Shown one piece after another: positions 41,895 through 48,512 of a DNA stretch of 64,000 nucleotides; within the stretch, counting starts at the first letter, position 1; each line of letters begins with the position of its first letter. The translations under genes and the position numbers were made by a program. Below the pieces are notes generated by a model that saw only the letters and a program-made list of their open reading frames with translations, was not told where the DNA came from and did no database searches. Source of the DNA: Methanobacteriota archaeon (lineage in GTDB: Archaea; Halobacteriota; Methanomicrobia; Methanomicrobiales; Methanoculleaceae); the NCBI GenBank assembly GCA_016841955.1, contig JAENYE010000001.1, positions 570,025 through 634,024 on the forward strand, in the 5' to 3' direction.

Positions 41895-42917
41895 CTATGG
41901 GATAAAAATAGCTCCGCCCACCCGGGCCTGCCATGCCTCGGTGATCCGGCCGACCTTCCCGGCGTCCGCCTTCTCGAAGAGGTCGAGAGCGGCAAGGTCG
42001 ATCTGGGGCGGGAGGACGGCGGGGAGCAGGCGGAAGTCCCCCTGGTAGACCTCGATCTCCTGCGCGCCGGCGGCGGTGGCGACGAGGACGGGATCCCGCG
42101 CGACCGGTCGGCGCCGGAGGTCGTCGTAGGACCGGTGCATCGTCACCTCGCCGATCTCGAGGAATTCCCGGTTCACCCGGAGGTTGCAGGCGGTCCAGTA
42201 GGCGGCCGCGTACCAGGCGTCGTTGCAGATCACGTGAGGGACGCCCGCCCGGGCGGCGGCGAGTCCGAGGGTGCCGGCGCCGGAGCAGGCGTCGACGAAG
42301 GTCCGGGGCCGGCGCTCCTCGATCTGGTGCTCGAGCGAGAGAATCTTTTCGTCGCGGTCCCGGGGGAACTCGACATGCAGGGCCGACTGCTGCTTGTAGA
42401 CGACTACGGGTCCTCTACGAGTGGGGAAGATGTCGGCCCGGACGTCGCACCCGGCAAGCAGGGTATGGGTCTTTGGTTCCGCGTCGGTATCCCTGACTCC
42501 CGGCGTCCCGGCACCCGCCCGGACGACCCCCCGGACCTCCGGGACCTCGGCGATCAGGCGGGCGGCGGCCCGCTCCCCGACCGACCGGGAGAGGAGGACG
42601 AGTGAATTGGGCGGGAGATAGGGGGCTCTCCGCATCGCAAATCCGGGGTGGACGAGCGGCGTCCCGGCGGCGCCGAGGGGTTCGGTCCCGGCAAGGTCTC
42701 CTTCAGTGACCATCACCCGGTAGATGTGGGCGAAGACCTCGTCGATGAACCGCTTCCCGCAGGAGCAGGGCTCCGCCGGATCGATATCGGGCGGGGGGCT
42801 GCGCTTGTCGTAGACGAGCCCCATGCAGTCGGGGCAGGGGGCGAAGGTGTGCGGCAGCCGTGCAAGGAGCGCAGGAGCGTCCTCGATGCAGTCTCCCCCG
42901 CAGACCGGACAGTTCAT
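41895..42917 (-). CDS. SAM-dependent methyltransferase with N-terminal Zn-ribbon-like cysteine clusters
   Basis: 340 residues. Three cysteine clusters at the start (CPVCGGDC, CPDCMG, CSCGKRF) suggest one or two zinc knuckles. A class I methyltransferase core follows from ~205: TFVDACSGAGTLGLAAARAG (motif I) and VICNDAWYAAAYWTACNLRV (post-I). The protein is probably an RNA or protein methyltransferase but I cannot name it. CATATTTATG (about 42942-42951) is a TATA box for a near-leaderless start. Its last codons contain the SRP RNA TATA box. Confidence 0.75.
   Translation of the reverse strand: MNCPVCGGDCIEDAPALLARLPHTFAPCPDCMGLVYDKRSPPPDIDPAEPCSCGKRFIDEVFAHIYRVMVTEGDLAGTEPLGAAGTPLVHPGFAMRRAPYLPPNSLVLLSRSVGERAAARLIAEVPEVRGVVRAGAGTPGVRDTDAEPKTHTLLAGCDVRADIFPTRRGPVVVYKQQSALHVEFPRDRDEKILSLEHQIEERRPRTFVDACSGAGTLGLAAARAGVPHVICNDAWYAAAYWTACNLRVNREFLEIGEVTMHRSYDDLRRRPVARDPVLVATAAGAQEIEVYQGDFRLLPAVLPPQIDLAALDLFEKADAGKVGRITEAWQARVGGAIFIP
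41902..41909 (-). promoter_or_regulatory. TATA box of the SRP RNA, inside the 3' end of the methyltransferase gene
   Basis: TTTTTATC on the minus strand is centred about 25 bp before the inferred SRP RNA 5' end at 41880. It overlaps the last five codons of the upstream methyltransferase gene. Confidence 0.7.
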
Positions 42918-42969: not shown

Positions 42970-44892
42970 TCAGAAGAACCCTTCTACAAGCAGGCCGAAA
43001 ATGAGCGCGGTGATGTACGCCAACGGGTAGAGCCAGACCATCACCCGGTCGATCCGCTCGGCGATCTCCTTCTGCGCCGCAGTCGCCAGCCATCTCAGGT
43101 AGAGGTTGTAGGCTACCGTAGCGCCGGTGATGACGAAGGTGGCGATCAGAATGGAGTCCAGGAAGGTCAGGTAGCCAAGGTGCGGCAGGTTTCCGGCGAT
43201 GGTGAAGTTGAACGCGATGAAGAGGAGCAGGTTTGCGGCTGCAATATCGGCCCGTTTGGCGTAGTCCTTGAGAAGGAACGTGATGTAGGTCAGGAGGATG
43301 ATGATCAGGATGGGCAGCAGGATGCGGAGGAGGTAAAAGGTCAGGTGGCGGGCAGCGATAAAGTTGAATGAGTAGCGGGAGTTCTGGGTCGTGATCTCGA
43401 TCGTGCTGATGTTGGTATCGCTCGAGGTGATGTACCATTCCTCCTCTCCGAGCTGGGTGCCGACGGCGGTCTTCTCCGGCCAGGGTTCATAGACATACAG
43501 TTCTTCGGGATAGAGCGAGTCGATCCGGATGAAGAACTCCTGGGTATCGAACGGGTAGGCCCTGAAATTGAATTCAGGCGCCTGCAGGGTCGTCCAGAAG
43601 TGCTCGAAGTAGGTGGCGGTGCCGTTGGGCTGCACCACGATGATCTGGTTCTGCGTCCAGCGCTGCGCCTGCTGGTTGTAGAGCGTAAACTCCGGCCACC
43701 GTGACCCCTCGGCCGCGACGAAATCGTCGATGCTCCGGTAGATCTTGACCCGGCAATTGCATTCATCCGGGCTGAATGCCAGAGCAGGATCGTTCCACTC
43801 CATCCAGATGTTGGCCACCACGGCGAAGTTCTCGCTGACCTGGTCCACGTTGGTGATCTGGTCCAGTTCGACGCCCACTTTGACCGGAATGGGCTCCTGC
43901 AGGACGGAGCGCCCTCCGGGCGACTCGTTGCCCGCCAGCACGCCGGGGGCGTTCAGGCCGGTCAGCAGGCGGAAGTCTCCTGTCGTGTTGGCCCCGTTCA
44001 GCGGGCTTGAGAGCACCTCCAGCCGGTTGTTGCTGCTGGCGCCGGAGAAGGTGTACTGGAGCGTGGCGCTGGTCTTCCCCGTTTCAGAAGCCACCGCGGC
44101 GAGGGGCTTGCCGCCGTAGTCCCGCAGGACCATCGCCGGGATCAGGTTCCCGGAGGTCGCTTCGATGAAGGCGTAGAAGGTATCGTTCGTTTCTATTGGA
44201 CTGAGGGTGTAGTAGGTCGATGTTTTGTTGGCGGAGAGGTTCCCCGTCACCTCCTGGACACCGACGCGCATCTTCGAAGCGGAAGCATTCAGGATCGCGA
44301 TAGTGGCCCCGGTCGGCTCGGCCTGGCCGGTCAGCACCTGCGGGGTGTCGATCCCGACCAGGAGGCGGTAATCCCCGAAGGTTTGGCCTCGTTTTGCCGG
44401 AGAGCCGATGACGATCAGGAGGTAGTTGCCGTCTGCGGGAATGCTGTACTGCAGGGCGGAGTTGTAGGTGCCGTTCGTATCATCGTTCCAGGCGAGGAAG
44501 TACCGGCCGGCGATCTCCGGGATCACCTTGAGCGGGTCCTCCCCCGCCGCCAGGGAGAGGTTCACCTCGTTTGCGAACTCGGTACGCACCCGGCTCGTGT
44601 TGAGATCCGGGTTCGCTACGGCGAGGAACGGGTCCAGGTCTCCCGATGATCCCTCCTCATAGGCGTACAGGGTCTGGCCCGCCCGCATGTCGGGAAGATC
44701 ATAGATAATTGCCTGACCGGGTTCTATTCTCCCGGTCAGCTCCTGAACATCGGCATTCTCCTGCATCTGGGCGGCCCCGGTGCACACCAGTACTCCGAGC
44801 AGGAGAGCCAGGAAGAGCGCTCTCCCTACTGCACGGGCCCGACCGTTCCGGCTTCCCGGTTCCCGCACCGGCCAACCGGTCCGGGCATGCAT
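42970..44892 (-). CDS. Pentameric ligand-gated ion channel (Cys-loop receptor homologue) with large N-terminal extension
   Basis: 640 residues after ATG 44892. Signal peptide near 20-42 (ALFLALLLGVLVCTGAAQ); residues ~45-335 are an N-terminal extension of two or three similar beta-rich repeats (GQTLYAYEEGSSGDLDPFLA, TFYAFIEATSGNLIPAMVL), reminiscent of PPC-like domains. Residues 337-515 form the ligand-binding domain: VKVGVELDQITNVDQVSENF, MEWNDPAL, and FRAYPFDTQEFFIRIDSLYP at the loop position. M1-M3 span about 516-600, and M4 runs 617-640 at the C-terminus. As in other prokaryotic members the Cys-loop cysteines are absent. It should form a surface-gated channel; ion and ligand unknown. TATA AAAAAATATCC at about 44939-44949. 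Confidence 0.88.
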   Translation of the reverse strand: MHARTGWPVREPGSRNGRARAVGRALFLALLLGVLVCTGAAQMQENADVQELTGRIEPGQAIIYDLPDMRAGQTLYAYEEGSSGDLDPFLAVANPDLNTSRVRTEFANEVNLSLAAGEDPLKVIPEIAGRYFLAWNDDTNGTYNSALQYSIPADGNYLLIVIGSPAKRGQTFGDYRLLVGIDTPQVLTGQAEPTGATIAILNASASKMRVGVQEVTGNLSANKTSTYYTLSPIETNDTFYAFIEATSGNLIPAMVLRDYGGKPLAAVASETGKTSATLQYTFSGASSNNRLEVLSSPLNGANTTGDFRLLTGLNAPGVLAGNESPGGRSVLQEPIPVKVGVELDQITNVDQVSENFAVVANIWMEWNDPALAFSPDECNCRVKIYRSIDDFVAAEGSRWPEFTLYNQQAQRWTQNQIIVVQPNGTATYFEHFWTTLQAPEFNFRAYPFDTQEFFIRIDSLYPEELYVYEPWPEKTAVGTQLGEEEWYITSSDTNISTIEITTQNSRYSFNFIAARHLTFYLLRILLPILIIILLTYITFLLKDYAKRADIAAANLLLFIAFNFTIAGNLPHLGYLTFLDSILIATFVITGATVAYNLYLRWLATAAQKEIAERIDRVMVWLYPLAYITALIFGLLVEGFF

Positions 44893-45020
44893 CAGGTCCG
44901 CTCCATCATCAGTCCAATCACCTCGTAGACGACATTTATTGGATATTTTTTGGGTTTGATCGCAGGTTTTGGTGGATTGCATTATTATTGCCAATATATT
45001 ACATTTTGGGAGCACGCGGC

Positions 45021-46073
45021 CTATCGGTCCGTGGACCGTTTTTCAGGACTTCCAACATCCTCGGACCGCTCCATCAGTATCGCCATCCACCGTGTCTCTT
45101 CCGAACTCGACAGCACCGCCTTTACGAGCAGAGTCAGGGGAGCACCCAGAAACAGCCCCGGGACGCCGAGCACCAGCGTCCAGGCGAGGACCGAGAGGAT
45201 GATCGTCAGTGGGGAGATTCGGAGCGCCCGCTCGGCAGGGTACGGCAGGAGGAAGCGGCGGGCGAGAAGGTCGACGATAAAGATGCCGACCGCAACGGCA
45301 AGTGCCCCCGGGAGGCCGTGCTGGAGCCAGGCGAGCCCGATAGGGGGCACCGATGCGATAGGCAGCCCGAAGTAGGGGATGTAGCCGAGCACGACGATCA
45401 GGACCGCCCAGAGCGCCGGGGCGTCGATCCCGAGGAGCAGCAGGAGAATCGCGACAGCGATGCCGGTCGCAAGCCCGCCCCGGGTGCGCAAGGACGCATA
45501 TGCAACCAGATTACTCGCAGAGCGGTTGAGTTCCGCTATAGCGTCGAGTCCGAGGCTCTTCTGGAGTTTTCCCCGGATCGAGGCTACTTCCAGAAGCATG
45601 AAGACGGCCACGATCAGGATGACCAGAAAATCGACGACCAGAATGGAGAGACCGACGAGGATCTCCCCGAGCGAGGGGATGAGCAGAGGGCCTGAAGATA
45701 CATCGGGCAGCTGGGGAGAGGTCGTGATCCCGAGGTCCGCAAACCACGCCTGCAGTGTCTCCAGCTGCGCCTGCAACAGATCCTGGTAGGCGGGCAGGGC
45801 GCTGTCGAGCTCGATCAGCGACAGGCTGAAGACGGCGACGAGCAGCAGGGCAACCCCGGCGATCCCCCCGATCATCGCCAGCACCCCTGCCGCCCGGGGC
45901 AGCCCACGCTCTTCCAGGCGATGCACGGTCGGCGTGACGATGACCGCCAGGATGAACCCGACGAGCACCGGGCTCACAATCGCGGCGCCGAGGTACATAC
46001 CGGTGACGACGATGGCGCCGCTGACGAAAACCCGGGTGAGGGATGCGAGGCGGGACGGAGCGGGCACGGTCAC
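45021..46073 (-). CDS. AI-2E family (PerM-type) transporter
   Basis: 350 residues with the family layout: two N-terminal helix pairs (FVSGAIVVTGMYLGAAIVSP, GFILAVIVTPTVHRLEERGL), an extracellular helical part (140-165), then five more helices with LIVVLGYIPYFGLPIASVPP and ILSVLAWTLVLGVPGLFLGAP near the end. Members export small molecules or act as Na+/H+ antiporters. A second member is at 54.9 kb. Divergence from the ion channel is not seen: both are on the minus strand, with this gene upstream. Confidence 0.87.
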   Translation of the reverse strand: MTVPAPSRLASLTRVFVSGAIVVTGMYLGAAIVSPVLVGFILAVIVTPTVHRLEERGLPRAAGVLAMIGGIAGVALLLVAVFSLSLIELDSALPAYQDLLQAQLETLQAWFADLGITTSPQLPDVSSGPLLIPSLGEILVGLSILVVDFLVILIVAVFMLLEVASIRGKLQKSLGLDAIAELNRSASNLVAYASLRTRGGLATGIAVAILLLLLGIDAPALWAVLIVVLGYIPYFGLPIASVPPIGLAWLQHGLPGALAVAVGIFIVDLLARRFLLPYPAERALRISPLTIILSVLAWTLVLGVPGLFLGAPLTLLVKAVLSSSEETRWMAILMERSEDVGSPEKRSTDR

Positions 46074-46136: not shown

Positions 46137-46610
46137 CTAAAGCCCCAGGAGCTGCTTCTTTTTGGCCTGGAACTCTTCCTCGGTGATGATCCCTTTATCC
46201 CGAAGCCCGGCAAGCTTCTCCAGTTCGCCGATGTAAGGCGGTTCGGCAGGCACAGCCTCGGGTGGAGGGGCTGCCGGGGGCGCTGCGGCAGGCTGTGGGG
46301 CCTGCTCTTTCGCCATGCCCGCCTCGATCGCGGCCACGTCCTGGTCGGTCAGCTCCTGCTCCTCGATGCCAAGGTCGTCCATCGCCCTGTCGAGCTCCTG
46401 CTCGGAGAGGTCTTCGGCCTTCTTGCCCGTATGCTGCTCGATGCGGTCGACATCCTTCTGTGAGAGTTTGATCGCGGCGGCGGTCCCGCCGACGGCAAGT
46501 GCAACCGTCCCGCCGACCAGAACGGTCCGCCGTATGGTACGGTGCATGACACGGCGCGATGTCCGGCGAGCGGTTCTCCGTGCGGTCCTCCGGGCTCCCA
46601 TGCGAAACAT
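46137..46610 (-). CDS. SHOCT-domain protein with Arg-rich N-terminus
   Basis: 157 residues: a basic repeat TARRTARRTSRR at the start, one hydrophobic segment (VLVGGTVALAVGGTAAAIKL), an acidic helical region, a Pro/Ala linker, and a C-terminal SHOCT module LEKLAGLRDKGIITEEEFQA-KKKQLL. SHOCT helices are oligomerisation tags of envelope proteins. A TATA box (TATTATAAAAAC, about 46693-46704 on the minus strand) predicts a leader of about 60 nt. The 472-bp stretch 46611-47082 has otherwise no gene; it holds the inverted repeat GAAGGCC ... GGCCTTC near 46988-47016. Confidence 0.8.
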   Translation of the reverse strand: MFRMGARRTARRTARRTSRRVMHRTIRRTVLVGGTVALAVGGTAAAIKLSQKDVDRIEQHTGKKAEDLSEQELDRAMDDLGIEEQELTDQDVAAIEAGMAKEQAPQPAAAPPAAPPPEAVPAEPPYIGELEKLAGLRDKGIITEEEFQAKKKQLLGL

Positions 46611-47586: not shown

Positions 47587-48264
47587 TCACTGCGTTTTCG
47601 TCTTCAAGGAATGTTTGAGGGCCCGTCCAAAGAACAGGGGATGGATGATAAAGTAGAGCGCCACGGAGATGTAAATCGCGATTGCCAACAGAGGCAGGAA
47701 CAGCGCGAGCAGCACGCCGATTCCATTGAAGATGACGCCGTACCGCCTTCGGCGCACCAGGACCCGCAGATCGTCTTCCGCAAGCCCGTCGACGAGGAGC
47801 TCAGGACGCCGGGCAAGGTAGCGCATGATCGTGTTCAGCATATACGATGCAACGAGCAGGTCCAGCCCGTAGATGAGGACCGACAGCCGTGAACCCGCCC
47901 CGGCGATGTGCGTGGCCATCAGTCTCGTGGAGAACGGAAGCAGGGAGACGAAGAAGAGCATCACGAGCGTCAGACGGAACGTGACTCCGTCTTCCTGCTC
48001 CGTCAGCCGGGTGATGGACGAGTGCGTGATCCAGAACCCGCCGATAAATGCAAAGCTGATGACGTAGGCGAGGAAGTCGGCCCACTCTTCGAGAAGCGCC
48101 CACAGCAGGCCTTCGGCAACGTCCGGCACGGGGAGTTCGAGGACGAGCAGCGTGATGACGATCGCGAAGACACCATCGGCAAACGCATTGAGCCGATCTG
48201 GGGGAAGAACGTCGGTCAGGCGGCTCCGGCCGGATCTCTTCGGGCTCTCATCAGGGGCAGCCAT
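47587..48264 (-). CDS. TMEM175-like (DUF1211) potassium channel-type membrane protein
   Basis: 225 residues with five to six helices. The first helix carries PDRLNAFADGVFAIVITLLV, equivalent to the R-x-x-x-F-S-D filter-helix signature of TMEM175 channels but with Ala in place of Ser. The next helices (FLAYVISFAFIGGFWITHSS, LTLVMLFFVSLLPFSTRLMA) also match the family. Bacterial/archaeal members are tetrameric leak channels for K+. The start is ATG 48264 or GTG/ATG one codon earlier. Confidence 0.82.
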   Translation of the reverse strand: MAAPDESPKRSGRSRLTDVLPPDRLNAFADGVFAIVITLLVLELPVPDVAEGLLWALLEEWADFLAYVISFAFIGGFWITHSSITRLTEQEDGVTFRLTLVMLFFVSLLPFSTRLMATHIAGAGSRLSVLIYGLDLLVASYMLNTIMRYLARRPELLVDGLAEDDLRVLVRRRRYGVIFNGIGVLLALFLPLLAIAIYISVALYFIIHPLFFGRALKHSLKTKTQ

Positions 48265-48512
48265 CACTCATCACCTGCACACCGGCATGGACTGAAGAAG
48301 AGATGAAAAAAGTTTGGTTGCGCTTCGTCGCCCGGGTCGGTTCTTTTATCCATGAACGAAATTGGCGAGCTTTCCGGGTCGGAGAGGCAAAAAGATCGAA
48401 ACGCTGTCCGGGCCATCTCCATGATTCCGGCCAGGATGGACCTGAAAATTATTCGGTTATGATATCTATCGGTGTATTCGTCCTCTTTGCCGCGGATTGC
48501 CGTATTTCGGCA

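Follow-up and report, generated by a model that had tools for sequence, protein, structure and literature searches.

The channel gene and its flanking features

In the window, the 64,000-nt stretch of DNA analysed here, the minus strand carries an uninterrupted open reading frame, running from an ATG at 44892 to a stop at 42970, for a pentameric ligand-gated ion channel (pLGIC) with an additional N-terminal domain (NTD), a canonical extracellular domain (ECD) and a transmembrane domain (TMD) (Table 1). A putative ribosome-binding site, GGAG, lies 8 nt 5′ of the ATG and is retained by most of the congeneric genomes sampled; it supports the start at 44892, as does an N terminus that is conserved among close relatives. 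The conserved TAATATAT block, located ~105 nt 5′ of the ATG and absent in L010 among the Methanoculleus-type relatives examined, suggests that the channel gene may be transcribed from its own promoter. All mature channel domains are under purifying selection, with dN/dS below 0.45 for every domain in all comparisons and mostly 0.2-0.4 in the NTD.

An assignment of the adjacent AI-2E protein as a Na+/H+ antiporter is not supported, as it lacks most residues of the antiporter subgroup motifs of PMC7221264; by eye, motifs B, C and D are without their K/Q, D and E residues.

Table 1. Features of the channel gene and its surroundings, in window coordinates (AF2, AlphaFold2).
Feature	Position	Strand	Evidence
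TMEM175-type K+ channel (prokaryotic), 2.6 kb upstream of channel	47587..48267	-	PF06736, E 2.2e-25
SHOCT-domain protein, upstream	46137..46610	-	PF09851
AI-2E/UPF0118 family membrane transporter, adjacent, upstream	45021..46073	-	PF01594, E 1.2e-34; synteny
TATA-like promoter block TAATATAT	44994..45001	-	conserved in most genus relatives examined
CDS, 640 aa, DeCLIC-type pentameric ligand-gated ion channel	42970..44892	-	ORF, Pfam, homology, Foldseek
Signal peptide region, residues 1-42, poorly conserved	44767..44892	-	dN/dS higher and uneven at residues 2-45
NTD1 jelly-roll lobe, residues 46-181	44350..44757	-	AF2 model of the lobe alone, pLDDT 90.8; TM 0.86 to DeCLIC NTD1
Ca2+ site 1, D87-P88 (DeCLIC D76-P77)	44629..44634	-	invariant in every NTD-bearing member; ligand role in DeCLIC, PMC12664993
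Ca2+ site 1, D137-D138 (DeCLIC D123-D124)	44479..44484	-	invariant
NTD2 jelly-roll lobe, residues 211-313, without acidic Ca2+ ligands	43954..44262	-	repeat of NTD1; alignments
Canonical ligand-binding/extracellular domain, residues 330-514	43351..43905	-	PF02931; DeCLIC alignment
Ca2+ site 3 acid, E354 (DeCLIC E347)	43831..43833	-	alignment; PMC12664993
CxC motif, C378-C380 (DeCLIC C371-C373)	43753..43761	-	alignment
Pro-loop FNFRAYPFDTQ, residues 441-451, without Cys-loop cysteines	43540..43572	-	sequence
Loop F QLGEEEW, residues 480-486, part of Ca2+ sites 3 and 4	43435..43455	-	alignment
Transmembrane domain M1-M4, residues 516-639	42976..43347	-	DeCLIC alignment; AF2 model
M2 pore helix: 2′ D549, 9′ L556, 16′ F563	43195..43263	-	aligned to DeCLIC E547, L554, F561
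Methyltransferase-like gene, downstream	41895..42917	-	adjoins AI-2E directly in three relatives lacking the channel

Homology to DeCLIC and domain architecture

In a phmmer search against all solved structures, residues 31-632 of the window protein align to full-length DeCLIC (434 bits over 602 residues, E 8.6e-129), and the next matches, sTeLIC and then GLIC, cover the core alone. Neur_chan_LBD (PF02931, residues 332-507, E 4.9e-13) is the sole Pfam match, and transmembrane helices are predicted at 517-540, 544-566, 577-604 and 608-639. Together with the Pro-loop, these features bear out the preliminary description, which had recognised a pentameric-type channel core with a YPFDTQ loop and four helices. 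The AlphaFold2 model of the full chain, computed from 23 archaeal sequences and of moderate confidence (pLDDT 79, pTM 0.59), has two beta lobes at its N terminus and four membrane helices; its 20 best Foldseek matches in the PDB are all DeCLIC, at TM scores of only 0.5-0.6 that are consistent with hinged lobes and the moderate confidence of the model. As judged from the full-length alignment, the window protein is a direct homologue of DeCLIC. The earlier choice of DeCLIC as the comparison was therefore correct, and the N-terminal region is homologous to that of DeCLIC rather than an analogous, DeCLIC-like extension. The same homology across the NTD rules out a novel receptor architecture: the architecture itself is already known, and what is new is the spread of the family and its pattern of conservation.

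The extra N-terminal region, initially read as ~290 residues of repeated PPC-like modules, is the DeCLIC NTD itself, composed of two PPC-like jelly-roll lobes. The repeat, fold and motif of that reading stand, while the region proper spans ~280 residues (46-325) preceded by a signal peptide, and the window protein does not reach the gathering score of Pfam PPC (PF04151), a model that detects 3 of 14 family members, with E 0.0034 at best. NTD2 is an internal repeat of NTD1 (hhalign 98.7%, E 4e-16). After DeCLIC NTD1, the structural neighbours of the NTD1 model are PliG, Tk-SP and clostridial collagen-binding domains, which are likewise the neighbours reported for DeCLIC (PMC12664993). The PPC and collagen-binding domains (Tk-SP, 3AFG; ColG, 1NQJ) and PliG resemble each NTD lobe in their jelly-roll and share the LDP and NDD calcium motif, but their TM scores to the lobe are only 0.5-0.57 and the window protein falls below the Pfam PPC cut-off.

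DeCLIC (from Desulfofustis; PDB 6V4A, 6V4S, 9EV8 and others) and the window protein have in common the NTD1-NTD2-ECD-TMD order, both Ca2+ sites, the Pro-loop, the gate residues 9′ Leu and 16′ Phe, the 2′ acid and the CxC motif; their NTDs are ~30% identical and their cores 44%. The outward face of DeCLIC, a bacterial protein, points to the periplasm, whereas that of the archaeal protein would point to the medium. sTeLIC (PDB 6FL9) shares the core channel, the ECD calcium residues E, P, F and L and an LGEEE loop F, but has no NTD match and no CxC in its solved chain, and is reportedly opened by alkaline pH. GLIC (PDB 4HFI), which is proton-gated, has the same Pro-loop channel fold at ~25% core identity but no NTD in its matched chains. 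The pLGICs of Methanosarcina are also archaeal and also bear extra N-terminal domains (Tasneem et al. 2004, PMC549065); theirs, however, are MCP-N and Cache, and a Pfam search of the window protein returned neither. In contrast to metazoan Cys-loop receptors with their disulfide cysteines, no Cys flanks YPFD. Every defining DeCLIC-type feature examined is present in the window protein, namely the ligand-binding domain with its Pro-loop, M2, the NTD lobes and Ca2+ sites 1 and 3.

M2 has the pore-like pattern expected of a channel: both hydrophobic gates of DeCLIC, 9′ Leu and 16′ Phe, are kept, and the 2′ position is occupied by Asp versus Glu in DeCLIC. This 2′ acid fits cation selectivity, which we infer for the window protein.

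C378 and C380 are the sole cysteines of the mature protein and may form a disulfide or a metal site. DeCLIC and the Chloroflexota proteins have the ECD CxC (SPDxCxC), as do most of the archaeal copies; sTeLIC, L050 and the subclade L019-L021 have lost it.

Calcium sites and candidate gating signals

Site 1 of DeCLIC is formed by the side chains of D76, D123 and D124 and the carbonyls of P77, D123 and Y129, and site 3 by E347 with P434, F436 and L477 (PMC12664993). Their counterparts are present in the window protein (D87, P88, D137, D138 and Y143 at site 1; E354, P439, F441 and L481, plus the GEEE of loop F, at site 3), such that both well-supported DeCLIC Ca2+ sites are conserved in the alignment; the carbonyl positions of site 2 are N/T versus G/G in DeCLIC. 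Across 19 non-redundant members (<80% identity, DeCLIC included), 13 of 282 NTD columns are invariant, and the D, P, D and D columns of site 1 are four of those (hypergeometric P 2.8e-6). The DeCLIC NTD contains 44 acidic residues, and the ones invariant across these members are exactly the three Ca2+ ligands. When NTD1 is aligned separately for 22 sequences, DeCLIC not among them, 9 columns are invariant, 4 of which are site 1. The site 3 acid (DeCLIC E347) is kept except in one lineage, and loop F is acidic throughout.

By these alignments, the Ca2+ site is the most constrained NTD feature in the family, which points to calcium, and not an organic ligand, as the common signal. PPC-type domains frequently bind Ca2+ for folding or stability only; therefore, the conservation of site 1 may be structural rather than regulatory. 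The family alignment contains no conserved aromatic residue in loop C, which leaves a classical amine site unsupported. Where the preliminary description left the ligand of a ligand-sensing channel unspecified, conservation of both DeCLIC sites and the lack of a conserved loop C aromatic narrow the candidates toward Ca2+.

DeCLIC is inhibited by Ca2+ and conducts cations on Ca2+ depletion, and its NTD is stabilised by Ca2+ (PMC12664993). The window protein is probably a homomeric pentameric cation channel of the DeCLIC family, shut by external Ca2+ and serving as an envelope ion-homeostasis valve. Its two-lobed NTD would lie on the outside of the cell, where, by homology to DeCLIC (PMC12664993), extracellular Ca2+ occupying NTD1 and the interface between ECD and membrane would keep the pore closed and stiffen the NTD. 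Ca2+ depletion, possibly helped by acid, would loosen the NTD and open the pore, and the resulting cation flux would tune the membrane potential or ion content in ionic stress. The channel would thereby act as an environmental ion valve and not as a neurotransmitter-style receptor.

Alternatively, the NTD and ligand-binding domain could bind an organic ligand (an amine, carboxylate or amino acid), with opening reporting nutrients or neighbours to the cell and Ca2+ merely folding the NTD, a structural use of Ca2+ of which PPC-type domains are capable. The canonical ligand-binding domain is intact, a close core homologue, sTeLIC, has been solved with 4-bromophenethylamine, and prokaryotic channels have been proposed as chemotaxis receptors (Tasneem et al. 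2004, PMC549065). A small-molecule-gated receptor is nevertheless unlikely, as the family shares no conserved aromatic residue in loop C, the NTD fold is not a known small-molecule sensor fold, and, among the lineages examined, the channel has no recurrent sensory or chemotaxis neighbour. We similarly doubt that the channel is mainly proton-gated, as are GLIC or DeCLIC at pH 5, with Ca2+ secondary. The PDB titles of 9FTH (Ca2+ present) and 9FTI (EDTA) both describe open DeCLIC at pH 5, and the window protein aligns well to GLIC, but the invariant NTD acids are exclusively Ca2+ ligands and GLIC has no such NTD. For the Ca2+-shut valve that we favour, the same titles suggest that acid may add to gating.

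Distribution and genomic context

Of 100 relatives from Methanomicrobiales, where the family is common but patchy, 25 carry an NTD-type copy, as do 10 of 35 genomes of the genus; three further matches among the 100 are weak and lack the NTD. Sampled evenly across the phylum, 18 of 394 genomes carry an NTD-type channel, and these same 18 are the only carriers of a Pfam-detectable pLGIC. In public genomes the family extends to Methanotrichaceae, Methanophagales, Chloroflexota and Nitrospirota. That a methanogen possesses such a channel is upheld by the full-length ORF and its homology, and the survey of archaeal homologues recovers the same NTD; the supposed rarity of the extension, described as known in only a few bacterial channels, gives way to a domain that is widespread in the order and present in every Pfam-detectable pLGIC of the 394 genomes. 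Archaeal pLGICs were reported in earlier surveys (PMC549065, PMC4795631), and among the papers available to our literature search none ties a DeCLIC-type channel to Methanoculleus.

In the tree, Methanomicrobiales and Methanotrichaceae form one clade (support 100/99), while the order of Methanophagales versus two Chloroflexota groups is ambiguous and DeCLIC, L050 and sTeLIC sit on long branches; the tree therefore does not set the direction of transfer between bacteria and archaea. A search for plasmid carriage returned no match to the channel in 72,556 plasmids. One genome (G017) has two paralogues in different neighbourhoods (L006, L029), which share 87% and 67% identity with the window protein, and three genomes of the same order (G096, G053 and G048; L026, L027 and L028) encode distant pLGIC-like proteins of ~340-360 aa that match the core only and are missed by PF02931 at E 1e-5.

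In three channel-less relatives (G011, G030, G001), AI-2E directly adjoins the methyltransferase, and the channel is therefore a clean presence/absence gene at this locus. It is very improbable that the channel is a functionless gene, decaying or a passenger, that came from bacteria and is now disappearing: against its patchy presence in the genus, its exact absence from that junction and the one relative with halves in different frames stand the lack of internal stops in other copies, dN/dS well below 1 in each mature domain, the conserved promoter-like block and calcium ligands that are invariant across archaea and bacteria. The relative with split halves is G098 (L024, L030, L051), in which the channel NTD and core lie in overlapping different frames, possibly through a frameshift, an assembly error or a split gene. 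In G011 (L127), the end of AI-2E upstream of the methyltransferase contains ATGGAGCGGACCTGATGCA, nearly identical to the start of the window channel, which looks like a putative deletion scar between short direct repeats.

No gene qualifies as a universal operon partner, as neighbours vary by lineage. Near neighbours elsewhere include a Na+/H+ exchanger (G013), ClC (G072, G087), TrkH/TrkA (G068), a KcsA-like channel (G252), a cation-efflux (CDF) protein (G175) and, 117 bp downstream of the channel at L039, a P-type pump that, among solved structures, is closest to Ca2+-ATPases; L090 and L094-L096 have no such ion-transport neighbour. Of 12 genomes, 6 have a member of one of six ion-transport families, chosen post hoc after having been seen nearby, no more than 5 kb from the channel, as against ~0.8 expected from the background gene density given by family searches over the 12 genomes (P 6e-5). 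Removal of one sister lineage leaves 5 of 11 genomes (P 5e-4), a class 3-4 times broader weakens the result to P 0.04-0.11, and a comparison of near versus far genes is marginal (P 0.05, or 0.08 per unit). DUF1269, with 23 matches in 14 archaeal genomes (1-3 per genome where present), is no more than 10 kb away from the channel in 5 of the 14, from three lineages, and is also found beside Chloroflexota copies. The neighbourhood is thus suggestive of an ion-homeostasis role.

We tentatively raise the possibility that, in Archaea and Chloroflexota, a conserved extracellular-calcium-gated pentameric channel serves as a dedicated ion-stress valve with local K+, Cl-, Na+/H+ and Ca2+ transporters and DUF1269-family membrane proteins. 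If true, this would be the first physiological role for the NTD-bearing prokaryotic relatives of neurotransmitter receptors, of which DeCLIC is the only one whose NTD has been characterised so far, its NTD calcium site having been resolved only in 2025 (PMC12664993). The family supplies dozens of natural archaeal variants with which to approach the NTD and the cellular role of prokaryotic pLGICs, and DUF1269, TrkAH, ClC and the Ca2+-ATPase are candidate partners for physiology. A recurring archaeal and Chloroflexota island (L040, L043, L075, L083, L084, L085, L086, L087) combines DUF1269/DUF6325, SHOCT, AI-2E, LURP-one, DUF308 (HdeD-like), sulfatase and radical-SAM genes, sometimes with the channel.
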